A DNA stretch of 47,778 nucleotides from a candidate division WOR-3 bacterium. GTDB lineage: Bacteria > SDB-A. The position numbers were made by a program, and so were the translations under genes. The notes under the pieces were generated by a model. That model made no database searches. It saw nothing but the letters and a program-made list of their open reading frames with translations, and was not told where the DNA came from. Within the stretch, counting starts at the first letter, position 1, and every line of letters starts with the position of its first letter. Where the stretch lies: assembly GCA_016926475.1 (NCBI GenBank), contig JAFGON010000010.1:1-47778 (forward strand), in the 5' to 3' direction. This document shows, piece after piece, positions 9,214-42,786 of this stretch.

Positions 9214-11607
9214 TTATCTAATTTTTATCATCTTAGAAGTCTCTGAAAAATATCCGCCAGCGTTCAACCTGTAAAAATAAAGGCCTTGAGGCAGCATTTC
9301 TCCGTTGTACCTGACCGTATGAAAACCCGGGGATAAATTGTAGTTCAATTTCATCTCGTCAACTTTTTGCCCCGCGGAATTGAATATCTCGACAGTCATG
9401 GATGATTCATGGGGCAGGGAAAAAGCGAAGTGGGTTTCAAAGACAAAAGGATCCGGAAAATTCTGATAGACCATGAAGCCATTTGACGTTACGGGGGGAT
9501 TTTCATCCACACCGGTTGCGCCTTCGCCCGTCGAGAAACAGAATACGCTCCCGTCGTCGAGGCCTACGAGAATTTCATCTCCGGTAATTCCGTCAATGGA
9601 ACCGATATTTTCCACAGTGTAGATCCTGTTTCCGAGATCTGAATAGTATATTAGAGAATCCCCGCCTCCGGAATAGATGTAGAGCATACCCGATTGATCC
9701 CCTGCAACCGCTTCCTCGATGCCGTCACCGTCTATGTCGCTTACAGGGACAACCCCGTAACTCCTGTAATCCTGGGTTGGCATAAACCATAGAGTTGAAC
9801 CGTCCTTTCCCTCTAAACAGAATATCCCTGAAAGTGATGAGAAGTTCGCCACTATTACATCGTCGTATCCGTTCTGATTCACATCGCTGATGATGTGCAT
9901 CTGTATAATTCCGGAATATCCGCTGCCTATCGAAGCATGCCAAACCATAGAACCGGTTTCGCCGTCTATCCTGTATATGTCTTCCCAGTAGTTCGCCGCT
10001 ATGACGTCCGAAGTGCTGTCCTCAATTTGCAGTTCAAGAAGTTCCTTGGCTCCGGATGTCGTTCCGTCGAACTGCCAGAGGAATGAGCCGTCTGAACCGT
10101 CAAGACCCCTGACGAATTGAGTCGTACCGTCCCCTCCGAACCCCGCGGCTACGTCAGGCGTGCTGTCGCCTGTCACGTCTCCGAGCGAAACCACCGAATA
10201 ACCTGATGATAGCCCGGAAACGCCGACATAGTAACGCCACAGGCTGTCTCCCGTCGCTCCGTTGAACAGGAAAACGGATTTATACCCGTTCCCATCCTGG
10301 TTTGAACTAGATATCGCAACTACATCCACGGTCCCGTCTCCGTTGAAATCCCTCCGGGCGTCCACCGCACCAAATCCGCCCATGTATGGATTGTAATCGT
10401 CTCCATAAGACCAAATAACTTCTCCGTCGATTCCGGACAGAGCATACACGTGTTCATTGCCGCCGTCAGTGCAAATAACCACATCGTCCACACCGTCACC
10501 GTTGAGGTCCTCTGCCGGCTGAACGGCTTTTTGAGCGGAAAACATCCCGTTTAGGCAAATAGATCCAGTGTTGTTGTCGTCAACGCCGGTGTTGAAAGTC
10601 CAGAATGTGTCGGCGTAGCCTGAGCTCGCGCCGTTAATGCAAATAGTCCAGTAGTTTTCCGTGCAGATTACAAGATCCGATATTCCGTCTCCGTTGACAT
10701 CGCCGATCTTTTTCAATCCTTCCACTTTTTTATCGTTATAGCTTGTGTAGGGGTTGTCCGGGACCAAGTATTGCCAGAACATATACCCGAGAGAGTAATT
10801 TCCTGAAAAACCCTCTCCGTTTAAAACTACACCAGATATTGGAATTGAAGGGTCGTCCGAATAAATCTCGAGGGTGTCCCAATAGTTGCCCGTTGCTTGG
10901 GGATTGAACCAAACCCTGACTGTCGAGTTGCTGTCCGGAAGGATTTCAAGAGGTAAGCTTCCGGACTGAACCGAAAATGGAGGCGAAATGGAAAAAGAAT
11001 CAATGTTCAGACCGATAATTCCCCTGTTGTAGAGGCATAAATTCCAGCCTGTCAGACCTTCTCCTCCCACCCACACAGTGCCAAAAGCATGGGATTGAGC
11101 CGAAAGCTCAATGTGTTGTTGCCCGTAGAGCCCGGCACCGGAAAACTCCAATTCTATTAAGGTGTCAACCGGATCGTTTGAATGTATATAGCCGATTTGC
11201 TGGTAATGACCGTATGAATCGGGAGAAAAGAAAAATTCCACAGCGGAGTTCTGCAGGGGCAATACTGAAACGGGCAAAGAAGTTATAACGCCGAAAGCAT
11301 CGCCTTGTATCTGTATGTTATCTATAATCAACTCCGCTGTGCCGTTGTTGAATACACTCACGGTAGAGTAAGAAGTATCAGAAAGGACTGTTTGGGAAAA
11401 TTCAATTGAACTGTCGCCGAGTGCGATGTCGGGAGTTCCTCCTGAAAGATCGATTTTGTAAATAAGCCCAGAGTTGTATCCTATCAACCACAGATATTGC
11501 CCGTCGAAAGCCAAACCGTATGGATACTGTGGAGCGTTGATAGTCTTTACCACCCCTCTGCCCAAGTCAAAGTTTAAAAAAAGTGAAAACATGAAAACAA
11601 AAAACAA
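9214..11607 (-). CDS. Large secreted protein: HYDIN-like Ig domains, FG-GAP/VCBS repeats, C-terminal sorting domain
   Basis: A 797-aa exported protein. The start is TTG at 11605-11607, chosen because AAGGAGG lies about 5 nt upstream and no ATG fits better. Hydrophobic residues 1-12 act as a signal. Residues about 20-50 look like one NHL/propeller blade (YPYGLAFDGQYLWLIGYNSG). About 55-265 hold two HYDIN/ASPM-type Ig domains (ISNVFNNGTAEL-like and WFNPQATGNYWDTL). About 275-690 carry FG-GAP/VCBS repeats rich in GDVNGDG, DLNGDGVDD and DVTGDS, which bind calcium in integrin-like propellers. The last 85 residues (YQNFPDPF...GLYFYRLNAG) are a FlgD-like type IX-style sorting domain. Probably cell-surface attached; ligand unknown. 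Confidence 0.85.
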   Translation of the reverse strand: MFFVFMFSLFLNFDLGRGVVKTINAPQYPYGLAFDGQYLWLIGYNSGLIYKIDLSGGTPDIALGDSSIEFSQTVLSDTSYSTVSVFNNGTAELIIDNIQIQGDAFGVITSLPVSVLPLQNSAVEFFFSPDSYGHYQQIGYIHSNDPVDTLIELEFSGAGLYGQQHIELSAQSHAFGTVWVGGEGLTGWNLCLYNRGIIGLNIDSFSISPPFSVQSGSLPLEILPDSNSTVRVWFNPQATGNYWDTLEIYSDDPSIPISGVVLNGEGFSGNYSLGYMFWQYLVPDNPYTSYNDKKVEGLKKIGDVNGDGISDLVICTENYWTICINGASSGYADTFWTFNTGVDDNNTGSICLNGMFSAQKAVQPAEDLNGDGVDDVVICTDGGNEHVYALSGIDGEVIWSYGDDYNPYMGGFGAVDARRDFNGDGTVDVVAISSSNQDGNGYKSVFLFNGATGDSLWRYYVGVSGLSSGYSVVSLGDVTGDSTPDVAAGFGGDGTTQFVRGLDGSDGSFLWQFDGTTSGAKELLELQIEDSTSDVIAANYWEDIYRIDGETGSMVWHASIGSGYSGIIQMHIISDVNQNGYDDVIVANFSSLSGIFCLEGKDGSTLWFMPTQDYRSYGVVPVSDIDGDGIEEAVAGDQSGMLYIYSGGGDSLIYYSDLGNRIYTVENIGSIDGITGDEILVGLDDGSVFCFSTGEGATGVDENPPVTSNGFMVYQNFPDPFVFETHFAFSLPHESSMTVEIFNSAGQKVDEMKLNYNLSPGFHTVRYNGEMLPQGLYFYRLNAGGYFSETSKMIKIR

Positions 11608-12649: not shown

Positions 12650-13702
12650 TCAGTCAGCCTGCCAGAGAATCAAAACGTGTTTGTGTTTGCCGGGGTCTTC
12701 CCATGTAATCGGCTTACCGTCTTCTCCGAAAGCAATAATACAGTATTTCGGAGGGAGGACATATACCTGTATGTCGCCAGGATTAGAAGTTCTTCCGGCT
12801 ATCCAGGATGTGTCGCTGTCATCGTCTTTGTCTATGAAAGACGGTTTGAAACTGTTTTGAGAATATTCGTAGTATGAATACGAGATGAAAGGTTTTTCTA
12901 CTTCCACACTGTCTCTCGGATCTGGTTTTCTCTGACCTCTTCGAGTTTCAAGTTCAGGAGGATCCGGCCAAACATAATTAATTTTTATGGCTCCAATCGA
13001 CTCGAAATTGGACGGCAGTTGGGGACGGTTCGATACGAGATAATCAGCTATCGTAAAGTTGAAAAGCCAGCCCGAAAATTCATCTTGGGATTCAGGAGGT
13101 ATGGTGTCGAGATAAAAAATGCTCCTGTCCGCGGAGAGTGAAAGCGAGAGAGAAGGTGTTTTATCGCCTCCCTCCCAGGCATCGTATCTGACCCTTTGCG
13201 TTGAAGGGTCTATTGATATAATTATTGAATCATCGAGAACTTTCGGCATGTTCTGCTCATTGCCGGCTTGCCGCCAGAGGGACAAAACCTCTTCGGAAGG
13301 ATCGTAGACCCACTGCCCTCCGTCAGCGGTGTCCCACCTGACAGGCAGGGGTTGTCTTGTTTCGACCAGAGATGATTCCGCTTTGATCAGTTGTATTTCA
13401 GCTGTCCTCTGAGAAAAAGGGTTTGATAAGGAAGGCGAAATAAAAGAAATAATATCGTCTTTGCTTTCCGGAAGTTGAGAAGAATATACCCAGCTGCCTT
13501 TGGTCTCATCCCAGTATGATTCGGATTTCTCGTACATGAACTTCTCTATAGCTTTTCTGACAGTATAGAGATTCGTCCTCGCTTCGCGGAATTTCATTTC
13601 AGCCCTGAGGGCTTTTTGCTGAGGAAACACCAGAACAAATACGAGTAAAATTCCTAGAATAACTATGGTTATGTCGAGTAAAATTTTATAAGCTTTTCCC
13701 AT
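12650..13702 (-). CDS. Membrane-anchored periplasmic protein with pilin-like N-terminal helix, function unknown
   Basis: About 350 aa from the ATG at 13700-13702, chosen over an upstream start because GGAGGG lies a few bases before it and the hydrophobic helix follows directly. Residues about 8-27 (ITIVILGILLVFVLVF) are one membrane segment. The following helix (ARTNLYTVRKAIEKFMYE) resembles the start of type IV pseudopilins, but no prepilin cleavage site is seen. The rest is periplasmic, rich in Pro, Asp, Ser and Trp, with no recognised domain. It follows the solute-binding/TonB fusion on the same strand after about 110 bases, with a candidate promoter of its own (TTGTAT, 18-base spacer, TATAAG) just upstream. 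Confidence 0.7.
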   Translation of the reverse strand: MGKAYKILLDITIVILGILLVFVLVFPQQKALRAEMKFREARTNLYTVRKAIEKFMYEKSESYWDETKGSWVYSSQLPESKDDIISFISPSLSNPFSQRTAEIQLIKAESSLVETRQPLPVRWDTADGGQWVYDPSEEVLSLWRQAGNEQNMPKVLDDSIIISIDPSTQRVRYDAWEGGDKTPSLSLSLSADRSIFYLDTIPPESQDEFSGWLFNFTIADYLVSNRPQLPSNFESIGAIKINYVWPDPPELETRRGQRKPDPRDSVEVEKPFISYSYYEYSQNSFKPSFIDKDDDSDTSWIAGRTSNPGDIQVYVLPPKYCIIAFGEDGKPITWEDPGKHKHVLILWQAD

Positions 13703-13766
13703 TTTCCCTCCATTTCTCAGACATATCAGCTTATACCTAAACGACTTTTCCCAATACAAATATCAG

Positions 13767-13810: not shown

Positions 13811-16105
13811 TCATTCCGCAAAATTTATCGGAATCACTGTCTGAGATTGCACAGGAACTCCGTCTTCGGTCGCCGGTTGAAATTTCGCTCCCATAGCGGC
13901 GCTTTGAGCTTCTGCGTCAGCAATGGGGTTGCCGGAAGAGCCGACGACCTCCGCCGAAGTAACTGTTCCGTCCGATCCTATGGTCACCCTGACGAAAGCT
14001 CTGGTCAGGCCCATGCCTTGAACCGACGTCGGCAATGACGCCACGGGAAGCCTTATCGGAGTTGGATTCGTCCGGACGACTTCCACTGCCGGCTGAGTGT
14101 CGACTGGAGCGGTCACCGATGATGCTGTGTCGGTTTCAGGCTCTTCAATCAACGCTCCGGTGACAGTTGTGACTGTTATTACCGTGTCTTCTGCGATTTC
14201 TGTCTCGGTGGTCTCAGGAGGGGTTTCTTCAACTGCCACCGTGTCGAGAAGAGGAGTTTCTTCTTCACCGGTAGTCACGGCCTCCTCAAGAGCTTCTCCC
14301 GTGGCTTCAAGCTCAATTATACCAGAATCTCCAGCAGAGCCTAAAGACGCCAAAGCGCCGCTGTCAGAAAGTGTCAAAACTCCGGCGATCGCCTCTCCGC
14401 CGGGGAAATACATGTCTTGTATTGATAGAGCGGCAATCTTTTCCCCGGTTTCGACTCCAGCCAGGCTGTTTTCCATTACATTGAGTTCGTACGGAGTGAA
14501 AAGAAGCGTGTAGGGCTGTTCGTCATATACTATTTTCTGAAACCTGTCCCAAGCTTTTTTTGTCTGTCTTCTGTCCAGAAGGGATGTGGCTTCATTCAGA
14601 AGAGAATCCACTTCAGTCGAATTGAAAGAAGCAAAATTTATCGAGCCCTCCCTGCCGAAAGCTTCTTTTGGATGTATGACGCCTTCGTTTACAAAAGCGT
14701 AGTCGAGAATATACCCGTGATATCCTCCGAATTGAAGCTGAGTTTTTACGTATTTTTGAGTGTACGACAACTGTATACCAGTGGTCACATAAACTGAACA
14801 GACGAGTCCTACTTCTCCCAAGTCTTCGGCAACCCTCTGTAAAATCGCTTTGCCCGAATTGTCAAAAGCCATGAGCTTTATCACGAGAATTTTCCCGTCG
14901 TATTTTCTCGCGTGGATTGAATCGTTGGGTAAATTCTGTATCTCTCTTCTTCCGGGTCTAATTTCTACTTCGGTCTGGGCGTAAGACGTATAGACCCATT
15001 CTCTCTCTTTGAGCCCGAGTGAATCGAGAATCATGTTTGAAAGATTAACATCGTAAGGTATTGGATCGAGTTCGGAGTTAACCGCCCAAAATTCTGTCGA
15101 AAGCGGTGTTGTAGGTATTCTTCCCTGTCCTCCGAGAAATTCTTTTATTATGTTTTCCCTGTTTATCGCCGCCGTCAAAGCGTATCTGAAACGAGGCAGA
15201 GTGTAAGGCTCTAACGTGTTGGTCCAGCCAATCGCGTAATACCTTTTTCCCGCCTGGTCGGTTTGAAGAGAAAGCCCCTCGTAACCGCTGAGAATGGAAG
15301 CGTAAGACGGGAAGATGTTCATAGCTATGTCGATATCCCCTCTTTCAAACGATCTAACCATGTCTCCGGAATTTCTGAAAAAATAAAAATATACCGAATC
15401 AAAGGCGGGTCTTCCCCTGTAGTAATCTTCGTAATAAGCCAATACTATGCCTTTGCCGGGGGATTTACTCGACAATTTGAAAGGCCCGTTGGTGACCGTG
15501 GCTTCCGGATCGATACCGAACCCCGTCGCCAAAAACTCATCCCAAGTCGTCACTCCCGTGAAAACATGAGACGGGAGGGGATAAATGTCGCTGTCAATTA
15601 ATTCGTTGGCGTACGGTTTTATAAAATTGACTTTTACGGCGTATTTTCCGAGTATTTCCACAGAAGATATGTTTTCCAGGAATACTCTGTAAGGAGTCTC
15701 TATGTATGGGTTTTCTGAGATTAAATCGTAGGTGAATTTGACGTCCAAAGCCGTGACTTCGACTCCATCCGACCATTTTACGCCTTTTCTGAGATAGTAA
15801 ACTATTGCTCCGAGATCTTCTGAGAATTCCCACTTTTCAGCGAGTATCGGGGCAATTTTTCCTTCTGCTGTTCTAGAAATAAGAGGAAGGAAGAGCTGTT
15901 CCGAAACAGGATTTTTTCCCGTAAACATAGGGTGCAGCGGTTGATTTGACCTCGGAATGTCGCTGCCGGTCAACCCGACTTTCAGAACTCCGCCTTTGTC
16001 TCCAGTCAGCTCTATCACCGAACTTCTCGTGCAACCTGCGGACAGAGCAAATAGCGCAATAACGGCGACGCAAAATAATGGGAAAAATGATTTGAAAATT
16101 TTCAT
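13811..16105 (-). CDS. Peptide-type ABC solute-binding lipoprotein fused to a TonB C-terminal domain
   Basis: A 764-aa lipoprotein. Lipobox LSAGC puts the lipidated Cys at residue 25. Residues about 35-555 are an SBP_bac_5 (OppA/DppA class) domain: ILAEKWEFSEDLGAIVYYLR, VKWSDGVEVTALDVKFTYDL, TNGPFKLSS, and ALTAAINRENIIKEFLGGQG are textbook segments. Residues about 575-690 form a Glu/Thr/Val/Pro-rich linker. Residues about 700-764 match the TonB C-terminal domain (AFVRVTIGSDGTVTSAEVV, AAMGAKFQPATEDG, VIPINF). TonB normally has an N-terminal inner-membrane helix and touches outer-membrane receptors; here a lipid anchor and a binding protein replace it. RBS GGGGGAGG precedes the ATG, 18 bases after rpmE. 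No permease genes are nearby. Confidence 0.85.
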   Translation of the reverse strand: MKIFKSFFPLFCVAVIALFALSAGCTRSSVIELTGDKGGVLKVGLTGSDIPRSNQPLHPMFTGKNPVSEQLFLPLISRTAEGKIAPILAEKWEFSEDLGAIVYYLRKGVKWSDGVEVTALDVKFTYDLISENPYIETPYRVFLENISSVEILGKYAVKVNFIKPYANELIDSDIYPLPSHVFTGVTTWDEFLATGFGIDPEATVTNGPFKLSSKSPGKGIVLAYYEDYYRGRPAFDSVYFYFFRNSGDMVRSFERGDIDIAMNIFPSYASILSGYEGLSLQTDQAGKRYYAIGWTNTLEPYTLPRFRYALTAAINRENIIKEFLGGQGRIPTTPLSTEFWAVNSELDPIPYDVNLSNMILDSLGLKEREWVYTSYAQTEVEIRPGRREIQNLPNDSIHARKYDGKILVIKLMAFDNSGKAILQRVAEDLGEVGLVCSVYVTTGIQLSYTQKYVKTQLQFGGYHGYILDYAFVNEGVIHPKEAFGREGSINFASFNSTEVDSLLNEATSLLDRRQTKKAWDRFQKIVYDEQPYTLLFTPYELNVMENSLAGVETGEKIAALSIQDMYFPGGEAIAGVLTLSDSGALASLGSAGDSGIIELEATGEALEEAVTTGEEETPLLDTVAVEETPPETTETEIAEDTVITVTTVTGALIEEPETDTASSVTAPVDTQPAVEVVRTNPTPIRLPVASLPTSVQGMGLTRAFVRVTIGSDGTVTSAEVVGSSGNPIADAEAQSAAMGAKFQPATEDGVPVQSQTVIPINFAE

Positions 16106-39228: not shown

Positions 39229-42200
39229 ATGAAATGCGCTTCCTGCGGCTTTGAAAATCCTGAAAAATCAAATTATTGCGCTAATTGCGGTGCATTTTTA
39301 AAAAAAATTTCCGCCCAGGAAGAAAGAAAACTCGCTTCGATATTGTTCGCAGACCTATCCGGCTTCACCGAACTATCGCACTCTTTGGAACCTGAAGAAG
39401 TCGCCGATATAATTAGAGCCAGCTCAGAAACAATCAACCCTATTATCCTCAAAAATGGAGGTCTGATACTGGGTTATCAAGGAGATTCGGTGATTGCAGT
39501 GTTCGGGATTCCAAAATCAGGAGAAGATGATCCTGAAAAATCTGTTAAATGCGCTCTTGAAATACTCGATTCAATTTCTTCAATAAATTTCAAGATATTC
39601 GAAATAACCGGTAAATATTTCAAAATTGGGATTCACGCGGGAATAAACAGCGGGATAATCGCTTGGAGCGAAACGGGATCCCCTTACAAAAATGAACTTA
39701 CGGCTCTTGGAGACACGGTTAATTTAGCATCGAGAATAATGAATCTCGCGATGAAAAACGAGATTTACGTATCGGAAAATATTTTCAGACAAACCAGGCA
39801 TTTTGCTGATTACGGAAGACTGGAAACCTACTGCGTAAAGGGCATAAAAGAAGAAATAAGAGTTTATAAACTGCGCGGATTAAAAAAAGAGCCTTCATCC
39901 AAAAGATCTCTCGCGGGAATTGACAAGAGTTTTATCGGCAGATCCGGTTTTATCGACAAGTTACGCCAATTCATAAACGAAAGACCTGAAAAAGATCTAT
40001 CAGCCGCTGTCATTTGGGGAGACGCGGGTATAGGAAAAACCAGATTCATAATGGAGTATCAAAAAAGCCAAATCAACGGCAAGAACGATCTTGTGTTTTT
40101 TTTACAATGTCCCCCAATGAGTGAAAGCCTTATGAACTCCACGCTTGTAAAATTTCTTGAAATGATATTCGGAATACAAAAGAAAGAAACAGAAAAACAA
40201 AAGAAAAACAAGATTATAAAAAAAATAAAATCATTTTCCTTGAATATGAATTATGAAAAGATGAAATTCATTTATTCCTTAATGTCGCTCGAACCAGACC
40301 TGGAATTACATCCAGCTGAAAACATCGACCCAGGTTCATTGGGTCTGGCTAAGCCTTTAGGGTTAGAAGCATTTTCAGCAGTCAAAGAAATTCTCACTGC
40401 TTTATGCCAAAAAAAAAAGGTTTATCTCATAATTGACGATTCCCATTGGATTGACGGATTTTCAGCTGCCTTTCTTTCTTATCTTTCTGAAAACTGGAAA
40501 AGATTGTCCATGGATCTAATCCTTCTATCAAGGATTGAAAAAAAAGGACATGTCAAGGAAATAAGCGACAAGTTAATAAAGAATTTGCACAATCGTTTTC
40601 TGAATCTTGAACTTGATCCTCTTGATATATCTCAGAGCAAAGAAGTTTTAAATTCTCTAATACCTGACGACAGAATAAACTACAAACTCAAGCAAAAGAT
40701 TCTCCAAAAAGCCGGCGGAAACCCTTTTTTTCTTGAAGAAATAGCAAGGCATCTTCTGGAGGCGATGGCATACACCGATACATCAGGAAGAAATTCACTT
40801 TCCGATGATAAGCTTTTGCCGGATTCAGTTGTGTCTGTTCTATATTCGAGAATCGACATGCTTGACCCCGTGCAGAAAAACATCTTGAGAGCCGCCTCTG
40901 TGGCAGGAAGTGATCTCAATGAATCTCTTCTTGCCCATTTAGTCCGTCAAAACCTCGGTGATGTAAAAAAAGAGCTTTCGTCACTGTCGGATTTGCAATT
41001 CTTGACCAAACTCAACGGTTGTTATTCGTTCAAGCACAACCTTGTGCAAGAAGTCGCTTACAAGACAATAATAAAAAAACAAAAAAAGGAATTACACGAA
41101 AGTATAGCTAAATACCTGAAAAAACTTGACGAAAGAAAAAAGCATAATTATAACGAAAGTCTATCCCTTCACTTTTTTAAAAGTGAAAAATGGGAGAATT
41201 CATTCAAATACTCTATAGTATCTGCTGAAAACGCTCTCGCCAAGTTTCAAAACGAATTTGCTCTGAAATTCTGCGAGCAGGCACAGATCTGCGCAGTTCG
41301 TCTAGGAGATGAATCCAGGTTGGTGAAAGCCCTTTTGATCAAATCCAAAATCCTCACTTTCACTGGAAATAACGCAGAAGCTCTTAACTGCGCGAAAAAA
41401 TGCTTAAAACTGGCAAAAAAAATTAACGTTCCTGAAATTGCTTCAGCATGTGATTTGTTGCTATCAGGCATTTATTCAATGTATGGAAACTACGAAAATT
41501 CCCAATTGCATTTATCCAACGCAATGAAATTTTTTAAACAAATCCGTGATCTCGACGGGCAAGCTGATTGTCAGATCATGTCCGGAAGGATTTTCTACCT
41601 CAGAAGCGATTTTAGAAAAAGCCTTCTCTCTTACAAAAAAGCACTTAACGTTTACCTGGAAACGAAAAACACACGCGGGATATTCAGGTCTTACAATTTG
41701 ATCGGATTGATATATTTTGAGATGTCAAACATGGAGAATTCTCTTCATTATCAGATAAAAGCGTCCAAAGTCCTAAAAAAGAAAGGCGACAGATTCGACA
41801 GGTCGAGAGTTTTGACAAGTATCGCCTTCGTATACTATAAACTTCATAAATATTCAAAAGCGCTCGACTTCTACAAGCAATCCATGGCAATCAAGAATGA
41901 AATCGGAGACAGACCCGGTGTTTCGTACAATCTCGCGCACATAGGGATACTATATTTATACATGAACGATTATTCCAATGCTCGGAATTATTTAGAAAAT
42001 TCCCTGGAAATACTCAGGAATATCGGGGACCTCAAGTCTCAAGCCAACGTAGAATTTTACATAGGCATCCTGCACCTAAGAATGGGGAAGTTAAACCTGG
42101 CAAAAAAAACTTTATCTAAAGCTCTCAGGGTATCAAAAACTATCGGAGACAGGCAGAGCTCCTCTGAATGCCTTTACACACTCGGACTTGTGGAAGCGGA

Positions 42201-42786
42201 AAAAGGAAAATTTGATAACGCCGAAAAACTTTTCAGGGAATCGTTGAAATCACTCAAAGCCATCGGAGACGTATCTGAATGCGGAAAAGTTATAACCATG
42301 TGGGCTCGAGTAAATTCGGATAGCGGTAATTTTTACTCAGCCAAAAGAAATCTCGAAAAATCTATGCCATATTTAGGTAAATTTTCTGAGAACAATTTCG
42401 TCTACCACAGCGTAAAAACAACGCTCGCTCTTGAAAGAGAAGATACGACTCAAGCCCTTGAAAACCTTCAAAAAGCCGAAAAATGGGCAAAAATACTCGA
42501 CACAGACCATTTTTTCGCTGAATACTACCTCCTCTCAGCCCAAGTGTTCGAATTCATTGGTAAAAACTTAAAAGCGGAAAAGTCTTACACCAAAGCTTCT
42601 GTCCTGTTCGAAAAAATAGATGAACCTCTAAACCTTGCCAAATCTTTTTATTTACATGGGAAGTTTTTAAAAAAAACCATAAAAAGTGATCAATACACCA
42701 AAAGAGCCCAAAAAATCTACCGCGATTTAAAAATACCTTTTTGGATTAGTTCAGAGAAAACGGCCGTGCACATGCGCGGCCGTTGA
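39229..42786 (+). CDS. Zinc ribbon - class III nucleotide cyclase - AAA ATPase - TPR regulator
   Basis: A 1185-aa multidomain signalling protein. Residues 3-20 are a CxxC...CxxC zinc ribbon. About 30-215 form a class III adenylate/guanylate cyclase domain with metal aspartates D42 (FADLSGFTEL) and D86 (GYQGDSV), N165 and R169 (GDTVNLASR). The usual base-contacting Lys four residues before D86 is Gly82, so activity or specificity is doubtful. About 235-620 is a predicted ATPase with Walker A GDAGIGKT (264-271) and Walker B YLIIDDSHWID. About 650-1165 hold some ten TPR units (for example SKALDFYKQSMAIKNEIGD). Such proteins are cytoplasmic scaffolds or regulators. AT-rich codons increase toward the end. 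Confidence 0.88.
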   Translation: MKCASCGFENPEKSNYCANCGAFLKKISAQEERKLASILFADLSGFTELSHSLEPEEVADIIRASSETINPIILKNGGLILGYQGDSVIAVFGIPKSGEDDPEKSVKCALEILDSISSINFKIFEITGKYFKIGIHAGINSGIIAWSETGSPYKNELTALGDTVNLASRIMNLAMKNEIYVSENIFRQTRHFADYGRLETYCVKGIKEEIRVYKLRGLKKEPSSKRSLAGIDKSFIGRSGFIDKLRQFINERPEKDLSAAVIWGDAGIGKTRFIMEYQKSQINGKNDLVFFLQCPPMSESLMNSTLVKFLEMIFGIQKKETEKQKKNKIIKKIKSFSLNMNYEKMKFIYSLMSLEPDLELHPAENIDPGSLGLAKPLGLEAFSAVKEILTALCQKKKVYLIIDDSHWIDGFSAAFLSYLSENWKRLSMDLILLSRIEKKGHVKEISDKLIKNLHNRFLNLELDPLDISQSKEVLNSLIPDDRINYKLKQKILQKAGGNPFFLEEIARHLLEAMAYTDTSGRNSLSDDKLLPDSVVSVLYSRIDMLDPVQKNILRAASVAGSDLNESLLAHLVRQNLGDVKKELSSLSDLQFLTKLNGCYSFKHNLVQEVAYKTIIKKQKKELHESIAKYLKKLDERKKHNYNESLSLHFFKSEKWENSFKYSIVSAENALAKFQNEFALKFCEQAQICAVRLGDESRLVKALLIKSKILTFTGNNAEALNCAKKCLKLAKKINVPEIASACDLLLSGIYSMYGNYENSQLHLSNAMKFFKQIRDLDGQADCQIMSGRIFYLRSDFRKSLLSYKKALNVYLETKNTRGIFRSYNLIGLIYFEMSNMENSLHYQIKASKVLKKKGDRFDRSRVLTSIAFVYYKLHKYSKALDFYKQSMAIKNEIGDRPGVSYNLAHIGILYLYMNDYSNARNYLENSLEILRNIGDLKSQANVEFYIGILHLRMGKLNLAKKTLSKALRVSKTIGDRQSSSECLYTLGLVEAEKGKFDNAEKLFRESLKSLKAIGDVSECGKVITMWARVNSDSGNFYSAKRNLEKSMPYLGKFSENNFVYHSVKTTLALEREDTTQALENLQKAEKWAKILDTDHFFAEYYLLSAQVFEFIGKNLKAEKSYTKASVLFEKIDEPLNLAKSFYLHGKFLKKTIKSDQYTKRAQKIYRDLKIPFWISSEKTAVHMRGR

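Follow-up and report, generated by a model that had tools for sequence, protein, structure and literature searches.

The established view of TonB domains places them at the distal end of a motor driven by protons. The solute-binding proteins (SBPs) of the SBP_bac_5 family, such as AppA, OppA, DppA and NikA/NikZ, have a complete two-lobed fold, and among the oligopeptide- and nickel-binding members the lipoprotein form is common. TonB and TolA bind their motors with an N-terminal helix that carries the motif Ser-X-His-X-Leu-X-Ser (PMC12204202), and at the other end the QPQYP motif of E. coli TonB contacts the TonB box (as cited in PMC7593965). It has also been proposed that the TonB C-terminal domain (CTD) binds peptidoglycan near the outer membrane (review PMC9022066). 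The closest functional parallel to the protein described here is the TonB-like FusB of Pectobacterium, a single protein joining receptor contact through a TonB CTD with substrate contact, which binds both the TonB box of FusA and the ferredoxin substrate (PMC7593965). However, FusB is proposed to be driven by ExbBD and binds its substrate by the CTD region (Arg motif), whereas the present protein has a separate solute-binding domain and no motor motif. The joining of a TonB CTD to another envelope protein has a precedent in the family model of the MxcH-type receptors (NCBIfam NF038079), which carry a TonB_C-like stretch near the N-terminus (model positions 2-84); there the domain is joined to the receptor itself, and here to an SBP. 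Proteins with the AgmX/PglI C-terminal domain (NF033768) showed weak similarity to the tail of one relative, below the curated cut-off, and differ in their N-terminal parts. No description of an SBP_bac_5 domain combined with TonB_C, and no paper dealing with WOR-3 together with TonB, was found in the open-access literature searched; the combination may be listed elsewhere without comment.

In the window, i.e. the whole 47,778-nucleotide stretch of DNA analysed here, a first-pass annotation had described a complete SBP_bac_5 domain and a TonB CTD in one uninterrupted frame. Both parts of this description were confirmed for the 764-aa ORF (Table 1), which starts with ATG and has a G-rich, Shine-Dalgarno-like stretch directly upstream. 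Pfam placed SBP_bac_5 at residues 83-383 (E=1.1e-50), the C-lobe continuing to about residue 570 with a second stretch at 488-553, and TonB_C at residues 703-762 (E=8e-13, 49.1 bits against a cut-off of 24.6); the NCBIfam model TIGR01352 (tonB_Cterm) also matched the protein, with 45.2 bits against a cut-off of 27.1. The linker between the two domains has a net charge of about -25 in the window protein, and among the homologues it is variable in sequence and ranges from 58 to 152 aa. The protein shares with TonB the CTD (TonB_C, TIGR01352 and fold) preceded by a flexible linker, whereas in place of the Ser-X-His-X-Leu-X-Ser motor helix it begins with a lipoprotein signal, followed by a solute-binding domain of about 540 residues.

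Table 1. Coordinates in the window of the fusion gene and the parts of its predicted product
Feature	Position	Strand	Remarks
Whole gene, lipoprotein - SBP_bac_5 - linker - TonB_C fusion	13811..16105	-	764 aa
Signal peptide, residues 1-24, hydrophobic helix ending in lipobox LSAGC	16034..16105	-	Peak Kyte-Doolittle 2.36
Cys25, predicted lipidated N-terminus of mature protein	16031..16033	-	Conserved Cys, 49/49 complete homologues
SBP_bac_5 two-lobed binding domain, residues 34-570	14396..16006	-	Pfam and AF2 model
Acidic Thr/Glu/Ala-rich disordered linker, residues 571-674	14084..14395	-	pLDDT <50 mostly
TonB C-terminal domain, residues 675-764	13814..14083	-	Pfam TonB_C, TIGR01352, Foldseek

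Modelling of the whole window protein by AlphaFold2 (AF2; 52-row alignment) gave a mean pLDDT of 80.5 and a confident two-lobed SBP part, which matched AppA (1xoc), NikZ (4oet/4oeu) and DppA in Foldseek. Residues 681-763 of the tail had a pLDDT of about 87-97, and most of residues 579-671 were below 50. When the tail was modelled alone (from seven sequences), its pLDDT was 87.2 and the rank 1 Foldseek match was TonB in the FoxA complex (6i97_D, TM 0.74, probability 1.00). The nine best PDB matches were all TonB CTDs, entries 6fip and 1u07 being among the TonB CTD matches, and the CTD of FusB (7zc8, TM 0.65) ranked below the TonBs. The initial description had depended on the tail adopting a TonB fold, and the pLDDT of the tail together with these matches bore it out.

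The lipid anchor proposed from the lipobox was likewise supported. Each of the 49 complete N-termini has a Cys after its hydrophobic segment, and a conserved Gly-Gly comes 12-14 residues later; the residue at -1 is Ser, Gly or Ala in 38 of them and another residue in 11, and the window lipobox, LSAGC, has Ser at -3, slightly off consensus. The predicted signal peptide with its lipobox Cys supports the view that the fusion is a bacterial lipoprotein, the lipid itself being predicted. The residue at +2 was never Asp; by the E. coli rule the +2 residues would point to the outer membrane, although the rule may not hold in this phylum. A search of the N-terminal 45 residues of 50 fusions gave no instance of S.H.L or H.L. 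By contrast, both dedicated TonBs encoded in the window genome have His in their N-terminal helix, and the fusion is thus unlikely to be driven by ExbB/ExbD. It was also noticed that the window genome encodes another non-standard TonB_C protein (L043, G000:C71:1500-8500), which spans about 620 aa from an FHA-like start through a Gly-rich stretch to a TonB_C tail and whose gene lies beside ExbB/ExbD-like genes.

A total of 53 distinct single-ORF fusions were collected, consisting of 50 plus three from a sample of 386 genomes across the domain. A six-row profile found the fusion in all four genomes examined of the GTDB phylum of the window and in roughly 50 of 147 WOR-3/Caldifarciminota genomes, about a third, some of these copies being interrupted at the ends of contigs or, in the case of L050, by a frame change. 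The three from the 386-genome sample belong to two other family-level lineages, f130 (L226 and L227) and f102 (L230). Both domains were confirmed above the curated Pfam cut-offs in ten sampled homologues, and the remaining SBPs retrieved from other phyla all lacked the TonB tail. In the tree of 75 SBP domains (a quick search with no bootstrap, in which L230 forms a long branch), a branch with an SH-aLRT value of 100 separated all 31 fused SBPs from the rest as one clade with one state change, which suggests from sequence comparison that the fusion had a single, ancient origin. Within the genus of the window, dN/dS was 0.08-0.11 for the SBP domain and, where dS was unsaturated, 0.02-0.06 for TonB_C, values that are rough because dS exceeds 1.5 in this genus; TonB_C was the most constrained segment in the clade of the window.

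These results also settle whether two genes had been joined artificially. Three other assemblies from the family of the window carry this ORF, also unbroken, behind rho (identity 73, 71 and 51%), and the fusion lies inside near-complete single-contig genomes, among them G135, G136 and G145-G148. Joining by misassembly or frameshift is thus refuted, to the point of being negligible, by 53 single-ORF homologues from many assemblies, and it is countered as well by their falling into one clade and by purifying selection along a single frame through both domains; the fusion is a true single gene. In the WOR-3 isolate SKW300 (L050:8010-9999) the fusion is broken by a frame change into ORFs of 458 and 211 aa, on a contig with a coverage of 3.8x, and sequencing error is a possible cause of the break. 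One locus labelled Desulfuromonas sp. SDB (L047, LKUE01000328.1) groups with the family of the window by protein identity (about 50%), synteny and GTDB kinship, and the label looks misleading.

Since an SBP_bac_5 protein ordinarily serves an importer, the permeases of the fusion genomes deserve attention. In the window genome (completeness 100) the fusion was the sole SBP_bac_5 protein, and the five BPD_transp_1 (PF00528) matches belonged to PstC/PstA, a MalF/MalG-like pair with an SBP gene of its own behind it, and a ModB-like permease. The PF00528 search of eight fusion genomes (that of the window and seven others) revealed no Opp/Dpp permease, the seven others having solely Pst, MalFG-like, ModB-like and SsuC-like permeases, as classes assigned by eye from sequence and neighbours without curated equivalog models. 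The marker of OppD/OppF, oligo_HPY, was found in none of the eight fusion genomes and in 11 of 14 control genomes. The fusion agrees with AppA, OppA, DppA and NikA/NikZ in its Pfam match and two-lobed fold, but differs by the TonB_C tail and by the lack of an Opp/Dpp permease or ATPase in the eight genomes. Additional SBP_bac_5 proteins exist in several WOR-3 genomes. A second unusual SBP fusion was seen there, a 1069-aa ORF (L224:2254-5463, minus strand) with MCPsignal and a C-terminal SBP_bac_5 domain by Pfam and no obvious signal peptide, adjoining a CheA-like gene; similar ORFs of about 1050-1130 aa occur in many WOR-3 genomes, and none was found in the window genome.

In the tail, the YP of the TonB-box-contact motif is retained by 46 of the 50 fusions compared, 39 of the 50 having xPxYP. 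In all four members of the family of the window, however, LP or VP stands in place of YP, the Tyr being lost, and in the clade of the window one residue is missing from the turn after the YP site. The SBP C-lobe of this clade has also diverged from other SBP_bac_5 proteins, having no GW..DP-like pocket motif as seen in relatives. Given the loss of the Tyr, the turn residue and the pocket motif, both the partner and the ligand may have changed in this clade, with the tail still strongly constrained. The fusion tail may bind TonB boxes, as the retention of YP in most fusions would suggest and its loss in the clade of the window would not. Each of the 59 fusion genomes tested has TonB-dependent receptors (at least two Plug matches), but so does each of the 21 non-fusion genomes; as all 80 genomes have receptors, this co-occurrence is uninformative. 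The window genome has three Plug matches, and at its C47 ordinary TonB/ExbB/ExbD genes lie together with a receptor.

TonB genes are frequently near exbB/exbD or a receptor, though this is not required. As noted in the first-pass annotation, neither a permease nor an ExbB/ExbD gene adjoins the fusion in the window, and comparison of 59 gene neighbourhoods revealed no conserved exbB/exbD or receptor gene beside it. A receptor was found within about 8 kb in about five of the 59, with differing receptor families, so that a receptor gene as conserved partner was rejected as not clearly above chance. The neighbours varied by clade: 1) in the family of the window they were rho and a pilin-like gene, 2) in other clades UDP-glucose dehydrogenase, epimerase and MscS-like genes were found in about 18-20 loci, and 3) peptidase-like genes were found in relatives of Hydrothermus and pyrimidine genes elsewhere. 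The position next to rho, which the first-pass annotation proposed to look for, thus holds for the family of the window and not for the other clades, a partner gene conserved throughout was rejected, and the neighbourhoods give no hint common to all.

Directly downstream of the fusion, and conserved in the four genomes of the family, a gene at 12650-13759 (minus strand) encodes a protein with a single N-terminal membrane segment and a pseudopilin-like look, which had no Pfam or NCBIfam match. In L301 and about four related loci of Hydrothermus relatives, two M42-like peptidase genes and an M23-like gene for a membrane-anchored product, all assigned by eye, lie closely upstream of the fusion in the same direction; the peptidase neighbours make a link to peptides possible there. 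Two other large proteins were noticed in the window. The one at 9214-11607 (minus strand) is an FG-GAP protein with a type IX secretion sorting domain, as in Bacteroidota, its TIGR04183 match being just above the cut-off, and the 1185-aa protein at 39229-42786 (plus strand) has adenylate/guanylate cyclase, AAA and TPR domains and a weak N-terminal zinc ribbon.

The first-pass annotation had suggested that one lipid-anchored protein could combine receptor contact with substrate capture. This fits the evidence, and the lack of any Opp/Dpp permease in eight genomes strengthens it; on the other hand, receptors occur also in non-fusion genomes and are not clearly enriched nearby. We tentatively prefer, at somewhat less than even likelihood, a reading in which the fusion is a lipid-anchored SBP without a motor, whose TonB domain docks on an outer-membrane partner, most likely through TonB boxes, to capture ligand. 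The binding protein would be of the oligopeptide/nickel type, lipid-anchored in the periplasm, and a flexible tether would carry the outer-membrane-contact domain of TonB without the motor helix. This domain may bind an outer-membrane protein at a periplasmic segment through beta-strand addition, the likeliest segment being the TonB box of a TonB-dependent receptor. Docking would keep the binding domain beneath the receptor exit, where it could catch ligand released when the receptor is opened by the ordinary TonB-ExbB-ExbD of the cell. The ligand, be it a peptide or a metal chelate, would then go on either to peptidases in the periplasm or to an importer outside the Opp/Dpp class. The partner and the ligand in this scheme are those that we infer. 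The broader proposal, that throughout the phylum such SBPs sit on TonB boxes and take ligand straight from outer-membrane receptors independently of a permease, is possible and is put forward with more reserve.

Much of the same evidence can be read with the TonB domain as an envelope anchor near peptidoglycan or an abundant outer-membrane protein, the SBP being a permease-independent scavenger or chaperone-like protein with no coupling to a receptor. Peptidoglycan binding has been proposed for TonB CTDs (PMC9022066), no receptor gene beside the fusion is conserved, and in the clade of the window the domain has remained highly constrained after losing the Tyr that contacts the TonB box. Against such an anchor stand the retention of YP in 46 of 50 fusions and a receptor-bound TonB as the nearest structural match, and we regard it as somewhat unlikely. 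A domain that has the outer-membrane contact but not the motor motif could by itself block a receptor rather than energise it, and hence the tail might compete for TonB boxes as a decoy, with the SBP as a ligand-switched sensor; competition between FusB and TonB for FusA has been suggested by the authors of that work (PMC7593965). With no regulatory gene conserved beside the fusion and no sign of receptor-linked expression, this role appears improbable.

Slightly more doubtful still is a reading in which the fusion serves an ABC importer as an ordinary SBP, the TonB tail mattering little. The permease would then lie elsewhere or be shared, the MalFG-like pair being one candidate. The resemblance of its two-lobed SBP_bac_5 fold to AppA, NikZ and DppA is what one would expect of such a protein, but the eight fusion genomes lack both the Opp/Dpp permease and the OppD/F ATPase marker, the MalFG-like pair has an SBP gene of its own, and the strongest constraint falls on TonB_C. 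It is very unlikely, finally, that the helix stays uncleaved and works as a motor with ExbB/ExbD, the SBP having been inserted into the linker of an energised TonB: the order helix, spacer and TonB_C and the presence of ExbB/ExbD in the genome would fit, whereas the His motor box is found in none of 50 fusions, a Cys occupies the lipobox position in 49 of 49 complete N-termini, and ExbB/ExbD are not adjacent.

Both domains of this protein are classic, and what is unusual is their combination, its spread and the missing importer: a TonB domain without a motor is widespread, old and strongly constrained, and no matching importer was found in the eight fusion genomes checked. If capture at TonB boxes is true, outer-membrane transport and periplasmic binding would be coupled in one protein rather than via diffusion to an ABC importer; the TonB contact would then have a second use, and some SBPs would function without an ABC permease.
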